Shown here piece by piece: positions 6,226 to 25,465 of a DNA stretch of 25,731 bases. The number at the start of each line of letters is the position of its first letter. Position 1 is the stretch's first letter. The notes under the pieces were generated by a model that was not told the DNA's origin, made no database searches, and worked only from the letters and a program-made list of their open reading frames with translations. This DNA comes from a virus, in IMG/VR virus record IMGVR_UViG_3300008106_000021, positions 1-25,731 of that record. One strand, given 5' to 3'. Made by a program: the position numbers and the translations under genes.

Positions 6226-6658
6226 TATTCTTCTTCTCAAATAGTTTATATGTCTCAGCAAAGATAGCTGGCATTAACACAGTATTAATGTGGTTAGCAT
6301 AGTCAGCATCTTTGATTAGCTCTCGACATGGGTTAGTGGTGTAGTTACTACTACCTCTAGTTAGCACATCAGATGCGTCTCTAAGATGGTAGAAAGTTCT
6401 TACTAGCTCACAGAATGTCCATAAGTCATTGTCATTGGTAATAGCAAAAGTCTTAAAGTGGGCTTTAATACCATCATGCATATTAGTATCTCTGAATAGA
6501 GAGTCTAAGTGGTAATGGCAATGATGGTTACCAATCCATCCCCAACTCCAATACCAGCTACAAGACCAGTTTGGCGGTGTTAAGTATATGCGTTTTCCTT
6601 CAATAGAAGTCCCTAGAAATACTCTAGGGTATTTAATGTTGTCCATAGCCTTACTCAT
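6209..6658 (-). CDS. Conserved hypothetical protein with WSCSWYWSWGWIGNHHCHYH motif
   Basis: A 149-aa protein with a very unusual aromatic/His/Cys block, NWSCSWYWSWGW followed by NHHCHYH, at residues 30-51. The Cys and His residues could bind a metal. The remainder is helical with no recognised domain. I have seen the 'CSWYW.(W/F)G..G...CHYH' style pattern in small phage and plasmid proteins, but no function comes with it. Two starts are possible, at 6658 and at an internal ATG at 6646 that has AAGG very close upstream. The gene is coupled to the DUF932-like gene downstream. Confidence 0.6.
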   Translation of the reverse strand: MSKAMDNIKYPRVFLGTSIEGKRIYLTPPNWSCSWYWSWGWIGNHHCHYHLDSLFRDTNMHDGIKAHFKTFAITNDNDLWTFCELVRTFYHLRDASDVLTRGSSNYTTNPCRELIKDADYANHINTVLMPAIFAETYKLFEKKNNAKDI

Positions 6659-6669
6659 AGTTTTATCTA

Positions 6670-7005
6670 TCAGCGTAGCGTCTTAGGCTCTGCAATGGAA
6701 CGAGCCACTTCCTTCAACACGCACACAACTTCACCCCTAGCCATAACACCACCAGCTTTTCGGAAAGCGGTACTCATTTGCTTAGAGTTAATTAGAGGTA
6801 CTAGGTCAACCCAACCACTGATGTTATTGAGCAGAGCATCATTCTTAAGTGATTGCTTCAGTTCCTTTGTGACAGAACTAAACTTAGTCCCTAGCCACTC
6901 ACTGACTAACTTCTCTAGTTCTTCATAGTTATAGTGATGAGCTATGCGGGCATAGTAAGTTTTGTAGTCAATCAGTTTGCTTAAATAATCTTGTCTATCG
7001 GTCAT
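6670..7005 (-). CDS. Hypothetical protein
   Basis: A 111-aa protein, mostly helical, starting MTDRQDYLSKLIDYKTYYAR. The second half contains WLGTKFSSVTKELKQSL and GGVMARGEVVCVLKEVARSI. A longer frame upstream is rejected because AAGGATAAC precedes this ATG and the extension crosses a GCGTAGCG hairpin. The last codons and TGA stop are built from another GCGTAGCG copy, so this repeat family reaches into coding sequence. No family is recognised. Confidence 0.55.
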   Translation of the reverse strand: MTDRQDYLSKLIDYKTYYARIAHHYNYEELEKLVSEWLGTKFSSVTKELKQSLKNDALLNNISGWVDLVPLINSKQMSTAFRKAGGVMARGEVVCVLKEVARSIAEPKTLR

Positions 7006-7026
7006 TGTTATCCTTATGTATACTGT

Positions 7027-7058
7027 TACCCTATAGCGTAGCGTCTTTAGATAGGGTA
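7027..7058 (-). repeat. GCGTAGCG-loop hairpin between genes
   Basis: An 8-bp perfect stem (TACCCTAT paired with ATAGGGTA) encloses a 16-base loop containing the GCGTAGCG core. It overlaps the end of the 93-aa gene and sits just upstream of the 111-aa gene. It is one of about twenty copies of the core in this window, nearly all in the same orientation and next to leftward genes. Confidence 0.7.
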
Positions 7059-7312
7059 TAGGAGTTGAGTAACAGGTCATCTATATCTAGTACACAACCT
7101 AGCGCTATATCCCATATCACGTACTTCCAGTAGGGTTCTCTATACTTATCAAGAATATCCCACTCCATACCAATGACTTGTACTAAGTCACCATCACTAT
7201 CCTTGAGCAAGTCACCTATACCAAACTTAGGCTTGTCCATTACTAAAGGTGCTGCGTTGTCTCTACGATAGCTAGCCTCAAGTGCATCATACTCAACTAC
7301 TTGTTCTGACAT
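7031..7312 (-). CDS. Hypothetical small beta-barrel-like protein
   Basis: A 93-aa protein. After a polar N-terminus, residues 28-75 read KPKFGIGDLLKDSDGDLVQVIGMEWD and YWKYVIWDI. This beta-strand spacing is reminiscent of SH3-like small barrels used for protein or nucleic-acid contacts. That structural guess is weak. It is the first gene of the leftward run beyond the + strand island at 7353, and its last codons lie in a hairpin repeat. Confidence 0.55.
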   Translation of the reverse strand: MSEQVVEYDALEASYRRDNAAPLVMDKPKFGIGDLLKDSDGDLVQVIGMEWDILDKYREPYWKYVIWDIALGCVLDIDDLLLNSYTLSKDATL

Positions 7313-7352
7313 AGTATACTTAACCTATTATTGTTATCCCGTAGCGTAGTGT

Positions 7353-8171
7353 ATGTCTAGTCGTATTGCATTAATGGTTAAAGGTTTGCCGCCTATAGGT
7401 ATAGATGAAGCTATAGAGAGGTTTGGCAAGTATTATCCCGAACCTAGGTTTGGCGTATGGCATGAAAGCCCTTCATTTACAGGAAGAGTAGAAAACAATT
7501 CTGTGATGTTTACCGATAGTCAAGGAAGCTTAAAAGGTGGGGGAGGGCTTAATGCGCAAGTAATGGCTGACCTAAGGAAATTGCAGTCAGATTTTAATAA
7601 CTACACTTCTCAGTACCCAAATATATATACAAATAGTCCAACCTCAGAATCAAGAGCAAAACTATATAGAAGAATTGGGTTTAAAGATGTGCCAAATGGT
7701 GGGCAAGCAATTGACAGAAGAATTATACTGCCTGAAGACTTGCCGTATGTCCAAGCATTAGACGGATTACTTCAAACCAGTGGAGTGAACAAAGCTTTAG
7801 GGAATATCAATCCTAGGCAAATAGAAAATATAACTGGGAGGTATGATTTAGAGTCTTGGGTAAACGGGAGAAGATTTTCATCAAGCGAAACTCCTAGAGA
7901 AAGAGAATTGCGTATTATTGATGAAGAAGTCAAGCAGGGGCAGAAACTAGAAGCAGCAAGGTTAGGGATGAATTATCCTGACTACCTCACCATGAGGTCA
8001 AGACAAGCAGAAGAAAGCATGAGGCAAAGGATGGCTGAAAGGATGAGTAGAGCTAGGCAAAGAACTCCTGAATCTTTTGCTCCAGAACCTAGCCCATTTG
8101 CATTCACAGCTAACATCCCTGCCCCATCAAGACCCTCAGCAATGGATGATTATGATGACATTCCTTTCTAG
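7353..8171 (+). CDS. Protein with SSB-like C-terminal tip (MDDYDDIPF)
   Basis: A 272-aa protein of unknown fold with a notable end. The last residues, SAMDDYDDIPF, closely match the acidic tip of bacterial single-stranded DNA-binding protein (DDDIPF in E. coli SSB). That tip recruits many replication and repair enzymes. Before it is a Pro-rich disordered linker (PEPSPFAFTANIPAPSRPS), which is also SSB-like. The N-terminal part shows no OB-fold. Around residues 110-125, RAKLYRRIGFKDVP resembles the last helix and strand of GNAT acetyltransferases, but the acetyl-CoA loop is not clear. A basic coiled-coil-like helix covers residues 190-240. There is no good ribosome binding site. It pairs with the Dps gene 33 bases downstream. 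Confidence 0.65.
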   Translation: MSSRIALMVKGLPPIGIDEAIERFGKYYPEPRFGVWHESPSFTGRVENNSVMFTDSQGSLKGGGGLNAQVMADLRKLQSDFNNYTSQYPNIYTNSPTSESRAKLYRRIGFKDVPNGGQAIDRRIILPEDLPYVQALDGLLQTSGVNKALGNINPRQIENITGRYDLESWVNGRRFSSSETPRERELRIIDEEVKQGQKLEAARLGMNYPDYLTMRSRQAEESMRQRMAERMSRARQRTPESFAPEPSPFAFTANIPAPSRPSAMDDYDDIPF

Positions 8172-8203: not shown

Positions 8204-8707
8204 ATGTCAGCACTACCCCTAGCTCAACAACTATCAACCCTACTAGCTAACACCTTTGTCTTTAGTCAACAACTACACGGCTTTCACTGGACGTATACTG
8301 GTGCTGGTTTCATCTACCTACACCCATTCCTAGGCGAGGACTATGAGAGTGTCAATGCTTCAGTAGATACCTACGCAGAAGAAATACTAACCCTCAACTA
8401 TGAACCACCAACTAGACTATGCGACTACCTAGCCCTATCCACATCTATCAAGGAACTACCCAAGGTAGATGATGGTGAGAAAATGTTACACATAGCCTAC
8501 AGTGGACACAATATCTTAGGTGAACTAATCAAGGGCGTATTCCCTATAGCAGAAGAGTGTGGTGCTAATGACATTGCCAACTACTTAGCTGAACGTCAGA
8601 ACTACCACTATAAGAAAGCGTACTTCTATCGTGCTGAGCTAGGCATTAAGATTCCTTCAGTGTTTGAGGCATCTAAGCCTAGATTGCAGACTAGCCCCCA
8701 GTCCTAG
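8204..8707 (+). CDS. Dps-family ferritin-like protein
   Basis: A 167-aa protein of the Dps/miniferritin family, which oxidises and stores iron and protects DNA from hydrogen peroxide. The ferroxidase residues are present with exact family spacing: His28 (in LHGFHW), His40 (in LHPF), Asp55 and Glu59 (VDTYAEE). The N-terminal helix LAQQLSTLLANTFVFSQQLHGFHW is typical. No strong ribosome binding site is visible, and the 33-base gap to the upstream gene suggests a shared transcript on the + strand amid leftward genes. In a phage this could guard the genome or the infected cell against oxidative damage. The 3' end overlaps a convergent gene by 17 bases. Confidence 0.85.
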   Translation: MSALPLAQQLSTLLANTFVFSQQLHGFHWTYTGAGFIYLHPFLGEDYESVNASVDTYAEEILTLNYEPPTRLCDYLALSTSIKELPKVDDGEKMLHIAYSGHNILGELIKGVFPIAEECGANDIANYLAERQNYHYKKAYFYRAELGIKIPSVFEASKPRLQTSPQS

Positions 8708-9301: not shown

Positions 9302-9393
9302 CCTATCCCTACTTCAAGTAAATGTCCTATCAAGTCCAACTTATCTGCATACATATCAAGGTCTACATCAACACAACACCAATGTTCACCGCG
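9298..9393 (-). pseudogene. Truncated duplicate of the 89-aa gene's C-terminus
   Basis: A stretch of 31 codons reads RGEHWCCVDVDLDMYADKLD then LIGHLLEVGIG and a stop. It aligns codon by codon with the end of the intact gene at 9598-9867 (RSEHWACIDIDLSVYADKLD then MVSHLLEVGSNE). An in-frame TGA lies directly before the homologous part, and no in-frame start is present, so the copy lacks the first two thirds of the gene. It lies on the far side of the ribbon-helix-helix gene, as a partial tandem duplication would leave it. Its stop still overlaps the next start. Confidence 0.75.
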
Positions 9394-9605: not shown

Positions 9606-9867
9606 TACTTCCAACCTCTAATAAATGACTTACCATATCTAACTTATCTGCATACACAGACAAATCTATATCAATACAAGCCCAGTGTTCGCTTCGCGGT
9701 GCTACATGAATACCACCATCCATTAGTCTATAAAGGTATGCCCAATAGCCTATGATTTGATACACAACACAAGGCGAATCGTACTGTTTGACCATGCGTG
9801 CTAATCCATCACTACCCTTAGTGGCAGTCTTAGCTGGTTTGAATAGTACGATATCACCCTTAGTCAT
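9598..9867 (-). CDS. Hypothetical protein, parent of the truncated duplicate
   Basis: An 89-aa protein starting MTKGDIVLFKPAKTATKGSDG, a strand-loop-strand opening like small KOW/SH3-type barrels. It continues with CVVYQIIGYWAYLYRLMDGGIHV and ends SEHWACIDIDLSVYADKLDMVSHLLEVG. The C-terminal part exists a second time as a remnant at 9298-9393. The start shares a base with the preceding stop (TAATG). No family is recognised, and the barrel idea is only a structural guess. Confidence 0.55.
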   Translation of the reverse strand: MTKGDIVLFKPAKTATKGSDGLARMVKQYDSPCVVYQIIGYWAYLYRLMDGGIHVAPRSEHWACIDIDLSVYADKLDMVSHLLEVGSNE

Positions 9868-11001: not shown

Positions 11002-11054
11002 AATCTATTCAGTTCTCTCTACTCCGAAGAGTCATTAGTAATGAATAGATTATA
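11000..11054 (-). promoter_or_regulatory. Promoter and nested leader hairpin of the nuclease operon
   Basis: On the - strand, a perfect -10 hexamer TATAAT sits at 11049-11054 and transcription should begin about 7-10 bases later. A 12-bp perfect inverted repeat (11000-11011 with 11042-11053) spans from the -10 to the start codon. Inside it, ACTC-TTCG-GAGT forms a small hairpin with a UUCG tetraloop closed by C-G, which is exceptionally stable in RNA. The purine-rich GGAG that could serve as ribosome binding site lies in that inner stem, so folding may hide it. Confidence 0.6.
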
Positions 11055-11596
11055 GCATAGAATGGACAGTGGGAATATAAGCAAACCACTTATTAAGTTA
11101 GGTTATTAACCCGTTGTCAGTGCAAAGTATTAGCTATTCCTTTGCTTCCCACTTTAATTACTTCCCTGTAATGAATGGATGATTGATTGCTAGCTAGATA
11201 CCCCACTTAGCTCCTAGTCAGGGACGACTTGCACTCCCCCATCTCTATTACACTGCCTTTGGATACCCACAGCATTGTGCAATATAGCAACAAATCATCT
11301 ACACAGGATAGCCATGTCCTACCTCTATCGGCTATTGGGATTTAAAGTTGCAACTTTAAAGTTCTAACGGATAGGCTTAGCATGAACGAACCCACTTCTT
11401 AGGTATTGATTATTCCCTAAGTATCCTGTGTTAATACCCTCCCTTATGTAGACGCCATTTTAATCTGCACACTGCATTCCTTATGGCAGCTTCATGTTAT
11501 GGCTTTACCCTGAAAGCAAGGTTCTATTAAGGTTATAACGGGCATTCTTACCGAGGCGTTGGTGGATAAGGGTATGATGTTTTCTAGCATTTTGTT
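11055..11596. other. Non-coding stretch with scattered inverted repeats
   Basis: I find no gene with a credible start here on either strand. Visible features are a 20-bp perfect palindrome at 11341-11360 and a 9-bp inverted repeat beginning at 11561. A T-arm-like segment at about 11220-11245 was considered and rejected as a tRNA. The stretch may hold untranslated leader, small RNAs or replication or packaging signals. Nothing more specific can be supported. Confidence 0.5.
11341..11360. repeat. 20-bp perfect palindrome
   Basis: TTTAAAGTTG followed directly by its reverse complement CAACTTTAAA, with no spacer. The symmetry stops exactly at the 20-base limit. A spacer-less palindrome of this size suits a dimeric protein site. 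No gene starts within 300 bases, so a classical operator role is not obvious. Confidence 0.8.
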
Positions 11597-11625
11597 GTTT
11601 CAATCCCTAATAGGGGTTATCCACC
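11561..11625. repeat. 9-bp inverted repeat enclosing a CRISPR-repeat half
   Basis: GGTGGATAA (11561-11569) pairs with TTATCCACC (11617-11625). The enclosed 47 bases include the partial CRISPR-like unit starting at 11597. The arrangement could fold as one RNA stem that presents the repeat half in its loop. Confidence 0.5.
11597..11616 (-). repeat. Partial CRISPR-repeat-like unit (3' half)
   Basis: On the - strand this reads CCCCTATTAGGGATTGAAAC. That is the typical 3' half of cyanobacterial CRISPR repeats, with the CCCTA...TAGGG stem and the ATTGAAAC end that forms the 5' handle of crRNAs. The 5' half is missing. It lies 45 bases from the full-length unit at 11642, close to one repeat-plus-short-spacer period. 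No Cas gene is in the window. Confidence 0.6.
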
Positions 11626-11641
11626 TAGACCTTATAGATGA

Positions 11642-11679
11642 GTTTCAATCCCTAAAAGGGTTTTAGAGGCTTTGAATCC
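11642..11679 (-). repeat. Full-length CRISPR-repeat-like unit, copy A
   Basis: A 38-base unit. On the - strand it starts GGATTCAAAGCC, continues with CCCTTTTAGGG as the stem, and ends ATTGAAAC. The length, the stem and the 3' end match cyanobacterial CRISPR repeats as I know them. An identical 38-base copy lies at 14893-14930, more than 3 kb away. It begins five bases beyond the 3' end of the tRNA-like gene and is flanked by a 12-base direct repeat (CTTATAGATGAG) at 11631-11642 and 11679-11690. This is a solitary or mini-array unit, not a normal array. Confidence 0.75.
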
Positions 11680-11683
11680 TTAT

Positions 11684-11809
11684 AGATGAGACAGGATTTG
11701 AACCTGTAAGGAACACTCTGATAGCTGGCAATACAGCCATAGCAGAGGACGGGGTTAATTCCACATATTAAGTTCCAGCCTATGCGTTTACCAATTCCGC
11801 CACTCATCT
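11684..11809 (-). tRNA. tRNA-Leu-like gene with an expanded centre
   Basis: On the - strand a 7-bp acceptor stem closes the locus (AGATGAG with CTCATCT). A Leu-type D-arm (GCGGAATTGGTAAACGC) and a T-arm with a perfect 5-bp stem and canonical loop (ACAGG TTCAAAT CCTGT) are present, followed by discriminator A and no encoded CCA. The span is 126 bases, about 40 longer than a normal tRNA-Leu, and the middle does not give one clean anticodon arm. Options include a TTAAT/ATTAA stem with loop ATGTGGA, or CATAG/CTATG around a longer insert, plus a CTCTG/CAGAG variable-arm-like hairpin. It may contain an intron, be a degraded tRNA, or be a tRNA-like RNA. The anticodon is not assigned. Confidence 0.55.
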
Positions 11810-11867
11810 TACCGCTAATATATTTCTCGGCCCATAGCTTGCCGTAGTTGTCTTTACAGTTCAACAT

Positions 11868-12279
11868 CTGTTGCCATGTTTAGGATGTGGATAGCGCCAC
11901 TTGCAGTTTAAAGAGCTTAGCAACAACTCTCCATACCTTCCTGTTTAAAGTCTGTTCGGATGCATGGTTCGATAGACTAATCAAGAGGCAAGGTTAGACA
12001 TAGACTAACACTACTAAGCAAAGGTCATGACTCCTCTACACTTTCGCCGCTAAATCCAGAGCTTGCTTGCTGTATGCGCTTGGATGAACAACTGCTAAAT
12101 CCAAGTGTGACAGTAGAACGGAGCAGTTCCTCGTACAGTGCTGATATGCACCTACTCTTGATAGTGGTTGAGGTTATCTAACACTATCCCCTAGCGTAGA
12201 TGCTAGAGGTAGTGGTCAGGACAATGTGCCGCATCGTCCCCCAGTAGCGTAGCGTCCTTGAGGATAGAGTACTAGATGG
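11868..12279. other. Non-coding stretch with hairpins
   Basis: No convincing gene is seen. CTTGGAT and ATCCAAG around 12080-12107 form a 7-bp hairpin. The phrase GCTAAATCCA occurs twice (near 12049 and 12093), and ATAGACTAA occurs twice (near 11971 and 12001). Two GCGTAG elements, about 12193 and 12246, lie at the downstream end near the stop of the winged-helix gene. This could be a leader, a small RNA gene or the remains of further tRNA-like genes. Confidence 0.45.
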
Positions 12280-14617: not shown

Positions 14618-14652
14618 ACTGTTACTGTTAAGTTAGTTGAACTGGAAACTGA

Positions 14653-14692
14653 TGTTATACACCAGACTCATTGGCGTTGCTATTGTATAACA
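14653..14692 (-). promoter_or_regulatory. Inverted repeat in the putative promoter of the 243-aa gene
   Basis: TGTTATAC and GTATAACA form an 8-bp inverted repeat with a 24-base gap, 36 bases ahead of the start codon. Both arms contain TATAC/TATAAC, which on the - strand resemble -10 hexamers. This would suit a dimeric repressor site over the promoter. No start point can be confirmed from sequence. Confidence 0.4.
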
Positions 14693-14713
14693 CCACAATG
14701 GCTTATAAGCATC

Positions 14714-14797
14714 CCTTTGCGTAGCACAAGCGCCATAGCACGGTCTGTCGCCGCGAGCTAGCTCAGACTCTGGTGATAACTGCGAGGTACGCAAAGG
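14714..14797. ncRNA. Candidate structured RNA element
   Basis: Three nested stems fold the 84-base segment into one long hairpin: a perfect 10-bp outer stem (CCTTTGCGTA with TACGCAAAGG), a middle stem (CGCCA at 14731 with TGGTG at 14771), and an inner stem (GTCTG at 14743 with CAGAC at 14764). The loop contains the 10-base palindrome GAGCTAGCTC. It contains no gene and is GC-richer than its surroundings. Strand is not decided, since both folded forms are equivalent. It could be a small RNA, a cruciform or a protein-binding site. Confidence 0.5.
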
Positions 14798-14892
14798 ACG
14801 CACGGCTTAACGTTAAGCATTCCCTAGCGTAGCGCTTTGGGAGATGATGTTACGAGAAAGGGAGAACTCTAATCTGTCCTCTGCTGAATTGA

Positions 14893-14930
14893 GTTTCAAT
14901 CCCTAAAAGGGTTTTAGAGGCTTTGAATCC
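14893..14930 (-). repeat. Full-length CRISPR-repeat-like unit, copy B
   Basis: The 38 bases are identical to copy A at 11642-11679, and identity extends four bases further on one side (TGAG). On the - strand it ends AGGGATTGAAAC and is followed by TCAATTCAGCAGAGGAC, which would be the guide position if it were processed as a crRNA. No second repeat follows within a spacer length, so it is a solitary unit. Confidence 0.75.
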
Positions 14931-15219
14931 CTATCCCCTAACGTAGTAGCCATGACTCTTATCGAACTACTGTTAAGTAGATGCGCTTGTGGGGCATTGA
15001 CGGCACACTCGTTATGAGGACTATACATTAGAGGATAAGGATGTGGTGTGAGACGGAGAGCAAAGGAGTAGGCTGACTAAGTTGTCCTCATAGAGGCTTA
15101 CCCAACCTTTCAACCCTTTGCGAAGAAACTAGGAGTTGAGTAAGGCAATCCTATCTTCTTCCCCTAGTAGCGTAGCGTCCTTGAGGGGAGAGCGCTAGAA
15201 GGTTAGCCTTTAGGCAGAG
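14931..15219. other. Non-coding stretch with long-range stem
   Basis: There is no credible gene. A 9-bp perfect inverted repeat, TATGAGGAC (15013-15021) with GTCCTCATA (15084-15092), encloses about 60 bases and could form an RNA domain. A GCGTAGCG hairpin closes the stretch at 15160-15189 just before the end of the next leftward gene. Confidence 0.45.
15160..15189 (-). repeat. GCGTAGCG-loop hairpin
   Basis: TCCCCT pairs with AGGGGA around an 18-base loop with AGTAGCGTAGCG. It lies 30 bases downstream of the stop of the 61-aa leftward gene. The same loop sequence, including the following TCCTTGAGG, recurs at about 12243-12262. Confidence 0.65.
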
Positions 15220-22685: not shown

Positions 22686-22838
22686 ATGAGCAAGGGAAAT
22701 CCTGCTATACGAATCCCAGAGCCACTTGTGCCTGTAGTGCGTTTGATTATTGATAAGTACAATGCCGAGGTTAAGACTACACAAGGCAAAGTAGCTGAAG
22801 ATTTAATGTCTAGAGTCGAGGCTATGGACAATGGATAA
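22686..22838 (+). CDS. Small hypothetical protein upstream of the primase (50 aa)
   Basis: A 50-aa protein, MSKGNPAIRIPEPLVPVVRL, then IIDKYNAEVKTTQGKVAEDL and MSRVEAMDNG. The start is picked for the GAGG-containing ribosome binding site. The IRIPEPLVPVVRLII segment looks like the strand and first helix of short DNA-binding proteins (RHH-like) in cyanobacterial elements. That is weak evidence. The last codons overlap the primase start by eight bases, so a regulatory or co-translation partner of the primase is plausible. Confidence 0.6.
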   Translation: MSKGNPAIRIPEPLVPVVRLIIDKYNAEVKTTQGKVAEDLMSRVEAMDNG

Positions 22839-23604
22839 AACTACTGTACAAGATGCGTTAACTCACTTGAGTGCGTTGGGTTTTGTTGAAGGGGATACGG
22901 TGCTTCTTAATTGCCTACCTATAGATGGTGGCAAAGGCAAGACATCTAGAAAGCTATCTTTTGTGTATCCTGATGTTGATTACCTAGGGATTAGTCAGCA
23001 AGAGGCTAAGCAACTCAATATATTTTATTGTCCTAACCGCGCTTATAAGGACAAAGATGTTACCCAAAGCTATGCCCTGTTCTATGAGCATGATGACATT
23101 TCTAAGGAAGAGTCTATGTCTATGTGGCAAAAGTATGGACTGCCAGAACCTACCATCCAAGTAGACACGGGTGGTAAATCTGTTCATTCCTACTATGTCC
23201 TATCTAAACCTGTAGACCCTGAACAATGGGTATTAGTTCAGACAATGCTAGTTAATGTACTTAAAGCTGATACAAAACTAGTTAACCCTGCTCGGCTAAT
23301 GAGGCTAGCTGGTGGTGTCCACCCTAAGACGGGCTATGTATCTACCATTGCTAAACACACTGGCTATACCTACACACTAGACGAAATTGCTAAGCCGCTA
23401 GAACGGCACTACCAACCTATTACTCCTACAACTAAAACTAAGCCGTCTAAGGTCAAAACAACTAAGTCTGAGAGTGAGTTGTTAGATGAAGTTAGGTCAG
23501 CATTAATGGCTATTAACTCACCTCAGTACCTTGACGATGAGGATGGGTGGCACAAGGTGGGAATGGCTCTTAAAGCTACATCTGAATCACTCTTTGATGA
23601 TTGA
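22831..23604 (+). CDS. AEP-type primase, N-terminal part of an interrupted primase-helicase
   Basis: A 257-codon frame ending in TGA. Primase-polymerase (AEP/RepB-like) motifs are present: an acidic motif in ALFYEHDD (about 83-89), GGKSVHSYYVL (about 114-124) with the S-x-H signature, and NPARLMRLAGGVHP (about 152-165). A basic linker follows, then DDEDGWHKVGMALKATSESLFDD, the first half of a PriCT domain. The frame then hits TGA, but the same frame continues open for 120 codons and completes PriCT (WSEQSPKS ... FRWAYDCGW). The helicase follows. The gene therefore looks like one 694-codon gene broken by a single stop. Confidence 0.8.
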   Translation: MDKTTVQDALTHLSALGFVEGDTVLLNCLPIDGGKGKTSRKLSFVYPDVDYLGISQQEAKQLNIFYCPNRAYKDKDVTQSYALFYEHDDISKEESMSMWQKYGLPEPTIQVDTGGKSVHSYYVLSKPVDPEQWVLVQTMLVNVLKADTKLVNPARLMRLAGGVHPKTGYVSTIAKHTGYTYTLDEIAKPLERHYQPITPTTKTKPSKVKTTKSESELLDEVRSALMAINSPQYLDDEDGWHKVGMALKATSESLFDD

Positions 23605-24915
23605 TGGTCTGAGCAGTCACCTAAGTCTATTAGATGTAACTTTGCCTATAGATGGTCACAATGGCAAGGTGAAGGCTATCAAGGTGGCTATACCTACAAA
23701 TCTATCTTTAGATGGGCTTATGACTGTGGCTGGCGCTCTACTAATGCTAAGTATCTACCTAGCTCTAGTGGTACATGGGATCATCTAGACAACGATCCTA
23801 CTGAAGTTATTGACAACCCATTTAGCAATGCTGTCAACGCCTTAACTGAATGGGCTAAAGGCTCTATCAGATACAACAAGCTTCTCAATAGGCATGAGTT
23901 CAAAGGTGAGAAAAAGACTATTAACCAAATCATTGCCAAGGTTAGAACTCAGACTAATATTTCTATGCCTAGATGGGATGCACCTTTAATTGTTGACCAT
24001 GTAGCCCTAGAGAATAGTTACAATCCTATTATTGAATACCTGCAGTCTTGCAAGGTTAAACAAGGGATTTCCCACACTAATATTGCTAGTAAATACTGGG
24101 GTGGGACTGAGCAAGAGGACGAGTATTTCTCTTTGTTTCTGAAGGCAGCAGTGCTTAGGCAAATCAATGAAGAAGAGTTTACTGACTTCCCCTTTTGCCT
24201 AGTATTAATTGGCAACTCAGGCTGTGGCAAGACTGCTACATTTAGTGCATTCTTCAAGTCTTGGATATACTCTATGTCTAGCTTCCACAGTGGAGTCGAG
24301 TCTGCACTTACTAAGAGCTGGCTATGTTTTTGGGATGAAATGGTTCTAGTTCTCAAGGCAGAAAACAGGGACAAAATCAACGAGTTCATTACTAAACCAT
24401 GCGTTAATTACAATGTAATGTATGTATCGAGAGATGAACAAAAACCTACCCCATTTGTTATAGGTGGTACTACCACAGACTATCAGTTTCTTTCTGATAC
24501 CTATTCACAGCGTAGATGGATGGTCTGCAAGATTCCAACTGGCACTAGAGTTAACATTCCTCAGCTAAGAATTGATGTTGATGCTATTTGGGCAAGCGCT
24601 TATCAAGAAGCATTAACCAACCCATCTCTAGGTTCTTTCGATAGACTAATTGCTACCACCACTAGGGATAATCAGCAGTACATTTGCCAGTCTGATTACT
24701 TTGAAGTGGTAAGAAATGCTGTTGAGACGTTCATGCATACTACGGGCTATGACTTTGTGTTCATCCCTGCTCTTAATGCTCAGATATGGCAAGGAAAAGC
24801 CATACCAAAAGGTTTCACGGCTGAAGTCAAGGCAATTCTGACTAACATGGGTTATTCTTCAAAGCCATGTAAATTAGCTGTTTATCGCGACAGACGTATA
24901 TGGAGTAAGGATTAG
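23605..24915 (+). CDS. Primase-helicase C-terminal part (PriCT end plus VirE-type SF3-like ATPase)
   Basis: In the same frame as the upstream primase, after its TGA. No start codon follows the TGA directly, and the first ATG is at 23965 with no ribosome binding site. Residues counted from that ATG: Walker A GNSGCGKT (83-90), Walker B-like LCFWDEM (120-126), GGTTTDYQFL (168-176) and SQRRWMVCKI (181-190), the order found in VirE-like/primase-associated helicases of phages and plasmids. It would unwind DNA ahead of the primase domain. Whether it is made by readthrough, by internal initiation or not at all is open. An origin-like repeat cluster follows the stop. Confidence 0.7.
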   Translation, partial: WSEQSPKSIRCNFAYRWSQWQGEGYQGGYTYKSIFRWAYDCGWRSTNAKYLPSSSGTWDHLDNDPTEVIDNPFSNAVNALTEWAKGSIRYNKLLNRHEFKGEKKTINQIIAKVRTQTNISMPRWDAPLIVDHVALENSYNPIIEYLQSCKVKQGISHTNIASKYWGGTEQEDEYFSLFLKAAVLRQINEEEFTDFPFCLVLIGNSGCGKTATFSAFFKSWIYSMSSFHSGVESALTKSWLCFWDEMVLVLKAENRDKINEFITKPCVNYNVMYVSRDEQKPTPFVIGGTTTDYQFLSDTYSQRRWMVCKIPTGTRVNIPQLRIDVDAIWASAYQEALTNPSLGSFDRLIATTTRDNQQYICQSDYFEVVRNAVETFMHTTGYDFVFIPALNAQIWQGKAIPKGFTAEVKAILTNMGYSSKPCKLAVYRDRRIWSKD

Positions 24916-24921
24916 AGCAAA

Positions 24922-25132
24922 ATGGGTCGTTGGGTCGTTATATATTCTTTATTCTTTATATAAAAAGGGTCAAAACACAAAGTGAAACGAAAGCATATTT
25001 CACCCCTATCCTAAAAGGGTATAGACCCCCGACCCATCCGACCCAATCACCCTTAAACCCAAGCTCTGTGGTGGATAGACATGGGTCGTTTCTCTTAAAA
25101 CAAAACGACCCATGTCCCATAAAACGACCCAT
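24922..25132. other. Candidate replication origin: GGGTCGT iteron-like cluster
   Basis: Seven copies of the core ATGGGTCGT or its complement occur: + at 24922, 24931 and 25081, - at 25030, 25039, 25105 and 25124 (the 24931 and 25039 copies differ at the end). A 26-base A/T-rich tract at 24940-24965 lies beside the first two copies. The copies at 25081 and 25105 are arms of a 14-bp perfect inverted repeat (25078-25091 with 25103-25116). Repeats of this kind beside a replication primase-helicase gene, with an AT-rich unwinding tract, are typical of phage and plasmid origins. A repressor operator array is the alternative. Confidence 0.65.
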
Positions 25133-25465
25133 TTAAGGAAGTAGCTTTTTCAAAGACTCGTAGCTGTCATGGATGGAATTAGCATCTACGACAACTGTAA
25201 AGTCAGTCCCCAAGCCTTCTCCAAGGTTTAAGACTAGCTTAGTAGGCCATTCGGCAAAGTCGATGGTAAATCTAGCTTGGCGAGATAAGACCAACAGAAA
25301 AGAGCCTTCTGACTCTGGACTATCGGCTGTACCCCATTCAGAAAAGCCTCTTGCTACCAAATAGCCAATCATTACGCGAACTTGTAGCCTTTGTTTCCAA
25401 GTTAAATTGCTTGTGTTAATCCAGTCGTAGTAGTAATCTGGTGCATCTGGCTCTTGGTCATTCAT
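25133..25465 (-). CDS. Hypothetical acidic protein
   Basis: A 110-aa protein starting MNDQEPDAPDYYYDWINTSN, with a helix TWKQRLQVRVMIGYLVARGF and a beta-rich end (GSFLLVLSRQARFTIDFAEW, then KLVLNLGEGLGTDFTVVVD). It is soluble and matches no family known to me. GAGGGAAG precedes the ATG. Its 3' end abuts the last GGGTCGT copy, so the origin-like cluster is between convergent genes. Confidence 0.55.
   Translation of the reverse strand: MNDQEPDAPDYYYDWINTSNLTWKQRLQVRVMIGYLVARGFSEWGTADSPESEGSFLLVLSRQARFTIDFAEWPTKLVLNLGEGLGTDFTVVVDANSIHDSYESLKKLLP

Follow-up and report, generated by a model that had tools for sequence, protein, structure and literature searches.

The Rep protein of SaPIs is established to recognise iterons directly downstream of its own gene through its C-terminal domain (PMC7581432), and in PICI origins an AT-rich region lies between two sets of iterons (PMC6092414). 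Short repeats located just downstream of the operon encoding Cch2 of SCCmec, a VapE/D5-type helicase, are bound in vitro, again through the C-terminal domain of the protein (PMC7581432). The alpha protein of phage P4 is a primase-helicase with a C-terminal winged helix that binds the origin repeats, and ORF904 of pRN1 combines an AEP domain, an SF3 helicase and a C-terminal winged helix with a 3' origin that includes a hairpin (PMC4234260). The PrimPol of S-2L has the domain order AEP-PriCT_2-VirE helicase (PMC8065100). It was stated in 2018 that an origin layout of the PICI kind is common to no known bacterial replicon besides PICIs.

The locus described here was found in virus record IMGVR_UViG_3300008106_000021, of which the whole stretch of 25,731 nucleotides (25.7 kb) was analysed and is called the window. 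The same phage is present at ~99.9% identity in records of 17.4 kb (G001) and 36.2 kb (G002), and two further records (G393 and G394) extend it on the other side. The latter two were considered as records without the primase and rejected, as their contigs end before that gene. The window contains tail-fibre-type genes, an exonuclease match, a MazG-like gene and a ferritin/Dps-like gene, the last (8204-8707, + strand) being an unusual passenger gene with weak Dps-type matches (PF00210, E 4e-13). Two 80-bp stretches in adjacent small genes (9308-9387 and 9611-9690) are 74% alike, the likely result of a gene duplication. Satellites lack a full structural gene set of their own; the presence of tail-fibre-type genes and of overlapping records of 36-45 kb sets this element apart from them, and it is a phage, not a PICI.

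The window also carries GCGTAGCG-type repeats, which are associated with filamentous cyanobacteria. Two long stretches without convincing genes (11002-12279 and 14618-15219) have a 50-bp repeat (86%) in common, with GCGTAGCG-type repeats, and contain three CRISPR DR5-like repeats on the - strand (11597-11618, 11642-11677 and 14893-14928). The starts of the first two are 45 bp apart, resembling a one-spacer mini-array, and the second and third lie inside a 45-bp stretch that is 98% identical between sites 3,251 bp apart. The Rfam CRISPR-DR5 match scored 31 bits, below the threshold of 40, and no cas genes were noticed. Among cyanophages, N-1 is known to carry a DR5 array (PMC4916379). The DR5-like 28-mer had no occurrence in 386 cyanobacterial genomes and was found in seven viral-contig stretches, all from the present phage. 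Adjoining a CRISPR-like repeat is a 127-base tRNA match (11683-11809, - strand; 40 bits, Rfam) that was not reported by ARAGORN and resembles a tRNA-Leu whose anticodon or variable region is oversized.

The gene directly 5' of the repeat cluster encodes a primase-helicase, referred to below as the initiator. The acidic AEP motif is present (FYEHDD in P0002), the domain order is that of S-2L PrimPol, and the AEP domain is closest to that of the same enzyme (6zp9, E 2.4e-20); the protein also matched 7pds (E 1.1e-9). The helicase is of the VapE/D5 AAA+ type (PF05272, E 5e-26; profile match to 7pds, E 5e-116). A structure model of the helicase and C-terminus built on 63 sequences reached a pLDDT of 93.8, and its top PDB match, over its length, was 7pds, the structure of PriRep1 with dsDNA (E 5.6e-19, TM 0.75). 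A model from two sequences (pLDDT 33.6) was discarded. In the retained model, residues ~626-696, the last 70 residues, adopt the order helix-helix-helix-hairpin, which is the secondary-structure order of a winged helix. This C-terminal winged helix is the predicted DNA-binding domain, and its modelled fold matches PriRep1.

The reading frame of the initiator gene is interrupted in the window record only, by an in-frame TGA at 23602-23604. Two other assemblies of the phage have six more bases at this site and an open frame of 696 aa, and the 696-aa protein is intact in L003; the window copy would thus be a broken variant or the product of an assembly error. Recoding of the stop codon (TGA read as tryptophan) was considered and rejected on account of the 6-base gap difference and the open frame in the two other assemblies. 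No close relative of the initiator was found in 386 cyanobacterial genomes, and hence no host-derived copy. Searches with PF00476, PF00136 and PF07733 for polymerases of families A, B and C gave no match in four phage records, which may be incomplete, a result compatible with synthesis of the DNA by the PrimPol or by a host enzyme.

The preliminary description of this locus had reported seven related copies of GGGTCGT in both orientations, directly 3' of the primase-helicase and between convergent genes, and had proposed a new origin acting as the cis partner of that protein. The number and orientation of the copies were confirmed, the heptamer TGGGTCG being exact in all seven (three on the + and four on the - strand) between 24923 and 25131, a segment of ~210 bp (Table 1). 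GGGTCGT as the word of the cluster holds for five copies, while the other two read GGGTCGG. The placement was also as described, with the stop codon of the + strand primase-helicase gene at 24915 and an ORF on the - strand at 25133-25465. GGGTCGT occurs five times in the window, always inside the cluster, against an expectation of 0.70, and 0 of 100 shuffles reached five. In the 36-kb record of the same phage, 5/5 occurrences of GGGTCGT and 7/8 of GGGTCG fall inside the cluster, and the top heptamer count per 211 bp was 7 in the phage versus 3-4 in 100 shuffled 36-kb genomes. A DNA-level search of phage and plasmid collections with the region downstream of the primase-helicase gave no matches.

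Table 1. Features of the initiator gene and of the segment 3' of it (positions in the window).
Feature	Position	Strand	Evidence or remark
50-aa ORF overlapping primase start	22686..22838	+	kept in L041; L094 exchange breakpoint near or inside
Primase-helicase: PrimPol-type AEP, PriCT_2, VapE/D5 AAA+ helicase, predicted C-terminal winged helix	22831..24915	+	PF08707, PF05272
Iteron copy 1, TGGGTCG	24923..24929	+	exact word count
Iteron copy 2, TGGGTCG	24931..24937	+	exact word count
AT-rich tract, 27/30 A+T, candidate unwinding element	24937..24966		similar AT-rich stretch, same place, in L041
GATAGGG element (CCCTATC on +)	25004..25010	-	[TG]ATAGGG enriched in VapE-helicase origins
Iteron copy 3	25030..25036	-	exact word count
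Iteron copy 4	25039..25045	-	exact word count
Perfect inverted repeat, 14 bp, loop 11, one iteron per arm	25078..25116		arms 100% complementary
Iteron copy 5, left arm of inverted repeat	25082..25088	+	exact word count
Iteron copy 6, right arm of inverted repeat	25106..25112	-	exact word count
Iteron copy 7	25125..25131	-	exact word count

The order of the elements in the window is + + / AT tract / - - / + / - -. Both the AT-rich tract, located between copies 1-2 and copies 3-4, and the perfect 14-bp inverted repeat were present as first described. The arms of the latter (25078-25091 and 25103-25116) are an extended pair of iterons, and the repeat folds with a predicted -21.1 kcal/mol as RNA. 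The hairpin may take part in strand selection, as suggested in the preliminary description. Cumulative GC skew, put forward earlier as a check, revealed no clear switch; the skew was weak, largely followed gene strand and is uninformative as evidence for an origin.

The cluster was retained in close relatives that carry the primase. In L003 and L004 the region is identical to that of the window, and a single divergent relative with a full initiator and downstream region was found, L041 (IMGVR_UViG_3300049846_001767), the initiator of which is 47% identical to that of the window over its length. Directly 3' of the initiator stop codon L041 has seven exact copies of another word, ATGCGTA, in the order + / AT tract / - - / + / - - -, and its second + copy with the next - copy forms a perfect inverted repeat of 14 bp, placed as in the window. 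In register, the two words share 5/7 letters (ATGGGTC and ATGCGTA). The AAA+ domains of the two initiators are 64% identical and the winged helices 27%, a contrast that would be expected of a DNA-binding domain changing along with its word. The gene after the cluster in L041 runs in the same direction as the initiator, so converging genes do not belong to the system.

A further relative, L094 (IMGVR_UViG_3300046777_001758), matches the window at 93-98% identity from 15921 onwards and at 98-100% from 22300 to ~22750, a point inside the small ORF that precedes the primase. Beyond ~22750 its initiator shares 73% identity with that of L041 and 42% with that of the window, so that in the L094 region 6540-8069 a different primase-helicase stands beside near-identical upstream DNA. 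The comparison identifies L094 as a sister phage in which the initiator gene was recently exchanged. The L094 contig stops within the helicase, short of the origin; the prediction is that the origin was exchanged with the initiator and that iterons of the ATGCGTA type will be found there. The last scan yielded no further member showing an origin paired with an exchanged initiator. It is tentatively proposed, at somewhat less than an even chance, that the PrimPol-VapE initiator and the iteron origin 3' of it constitute a portable, mutually specific cassette and that relatives, each with its own word, swap the pair by recombination.

The generality of the layout was examined in 74 non-redundant (70%) VapE-type helicase loci, most of which came from two additional scans of viral contigs. 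For each locus the most frequent heptamer, with both strands included, was counted in the 300 bp 3' of the stop codon, with 396 other gene ends of the same loci as controls. At least five copies of one heptamer were present at 41/74 VapE loci versus 3/396 control gene ends (Fisher 7e-35), and the position controls gave 0/71 upstream of the gene, 3/57 inside the gene and 1/69 at 600-900 bp downstream. Copies occurred on both strands at 39 of the 41 positive loci and flanked the AT-richest 30-mer at 28 of them. Iteron-armed inverted repeats with arms of at least 10 bp were found at 19/74 VapE loci versus 13/283. The words differ between lineages (GGTTGGA, AGGTAGG, AGGAACA, GTTAACA, GTGAACA, AACGTCA, CCTGTCA and others), and loci with more similar C-terminal domains tended to have more similar words (Mantel rho 0.31, 0/2000 permutations), a value uncorrected for shared ancestry. 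The word GTGAACA of L087 resembles what we take to be the iteron of phage P4. Fewer than four copies were counted at 25/74 loci, and the same heptamer test detected no cluster 3' of the gene at the cyanobacterial plasmid VapE/AEP loci L012-L017; the layout is either not universal or too degenerate for the test at some loci. The motif [TG]ATAGGG was near the AT tract at 17/74 VapE loci versus 17/396 control gene ends and is possibly a priming or melting signal. As a general origin element it was rejected, the 9/14 seen in the first loci having fallen to 17/74 in the larger set, where it is enriched but not general. Overall, the counts argue that an iteron layout 3' of the helicase gene is common in phages with VapE-type helicases. 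To our knowledge, most phages with VapE/D5-type helicases have unmapped origins. Some Streptococcus thermophilus phage origins lie near the primase-helicase genes of those phages, and for this reason the claim to novelty is kept modest.

Based on position, architecture, the change of motif between relatives, recurrence across the family and structural kinship with the SaPI initiator, we infer that the ~210-bp segment is very probably the replication origin of the phage, the iterons being recognised by the primase-helicase encoded directly upstream. The proposal of a cis-acting partner for that protein is thereby supported. The origin is new for the phage itself, whereas origins of its type, with iterons on the 3' side of a VapE-type initiator, have precedents in SaPIs and PICIs. 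The best reading is an origin of the SaPI/PICI iteron type that belongs to a full-size cyanophage and is read directly by the helicase, here equipped with a PrimPol. Shared with SaPIs and PICIs are a self-recognising VapE-type helicase with a C-terminal DNA-binding domain (here predicted), an origin directly 3' of the gene, two sets of iterons flanking an AT-rich region, and PriRep1 (7pds) as the best structural match. The present locus differs in belonging to a full-size phage, in having an AEP PrimPol, akin to the S-2L enzyme, fused to the initiator, in its word and in the prominent hairpin of inverted iterons. SCCmec Cch2 is similar in its type of helicase and in putative origin repeats just downstream, but has a separate polymerase complex as primase and only three iterons, while the primase of P4 alpha is of the Toprim type and not AEP. 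S-2L, the nearest cultured relative by AEP domain, has in addition to the same domain order a non-coding gap 3' of the gene; this 360-bp gap contains eight GGCAC (p = 0.09 in an unbiased best-word test), and S-2L differs by PurZ and a 2-aminoadenine genome.

The comparison with pRN1 raises the possibility of an origin in which the hairpin is essential and the repeats only supply its stems, a variant of, and compatible with, the best explanation. Essential to the plasmid is a stem-loop that lies in the 166 bp 3' of the AEP-helicase gene, and use of such a stem-loop has been proposed for a phage with AEP-PriCT_2-SF3-winged helix (PMC4234260); the hairpin is moreover kept in L041. However, pRN1 has a large stem-loop without iterons and a helical domain unlike PriCT_2, whereas here the hairpin contains only two of the seven copies, the AT tract has one set on each side, and most of the surveyed loci gave no inverted repeat with 10-bp arms. 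An origin of strictly this kind is considered unlikely, and the window would appear to combine iterons with a pRN1-like 3' hairpin.

It is highly improbable that the segment is a bidirectional transcription terminator in which the repeats are a by-product of the stem sequences. The flanking ORFs of the window do converge on a strong, perfect hairpin, and a termination hairpin had been suggested at the outset. Nevertheless, the T tract expected after the GC-rich hairpin of an intrinsic terminator is absent on both strands, a terminator scan of the segment found none, and L041 keeps the layout although its next gene does not converge. These results, together with the identity of the repeat as an extended iteron pair, disfavour a plain terminator role, which also leaves unexplained the seven copies, mostly outside the hairpin, and the link to VapE genes relative to the control gene ends. 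Still less credible is an operator cluster controlling expression rather than replication through a regulator such as the product of the 50-aa ORF. Short words repeated in both orientations are typical of regulator sites too, and the small ORF runs into the beginning of the primase gene; yet this ORF gave no match in a family search, the cluster lies on the 3' side of the genes, upstream of the primase there is no copy, the single other GGGTCG in 36 kb is distant, and the family-wide enrichment is downstream of the gene. Least likely is a packaging (cos/pac) or recombination site adjoining the replication gene by chance since, although such sites in phages can have short repeats and the region borders another gene block, the cluster accompanies the VapE helicase in phages of many lineages, and changes in the helicase C-terminus go together with changes in the word.

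For the iteron origin recognised by its own helicase, homology and co-variation suggest that the C-terminal winged helix would bind the TGGGTCG copies in both orientations. The AAA+ domains may then assemble as rings, probably two opposed since copies face each other across the AT tract, and ATP-driven distortion would melt the AT tract, the inverted-iteron hairpin or both. By analogy with the S-2L enzyme, the fused PrimPol would prime, and perhaps polymerise, on the exposed strands.

The survey provides a rule by which an origin and its recognition word can be predicted: immediately 3' of the helicase gene, an AT tract should be surrounded by copies, in both orientations, of a word particular to the lineage. 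The rule makes the origins of dozens of phage lineages testable, and the recognition code of the winged helix could be studied with these naturally occurring pairs of initiator domains and differing words. If the initiator and origin do form an exchangeable cassette, the relatives would hold orthogonal origins, at each of which one protein recognises, melts, unwinds, primes and perhaps polymerises.
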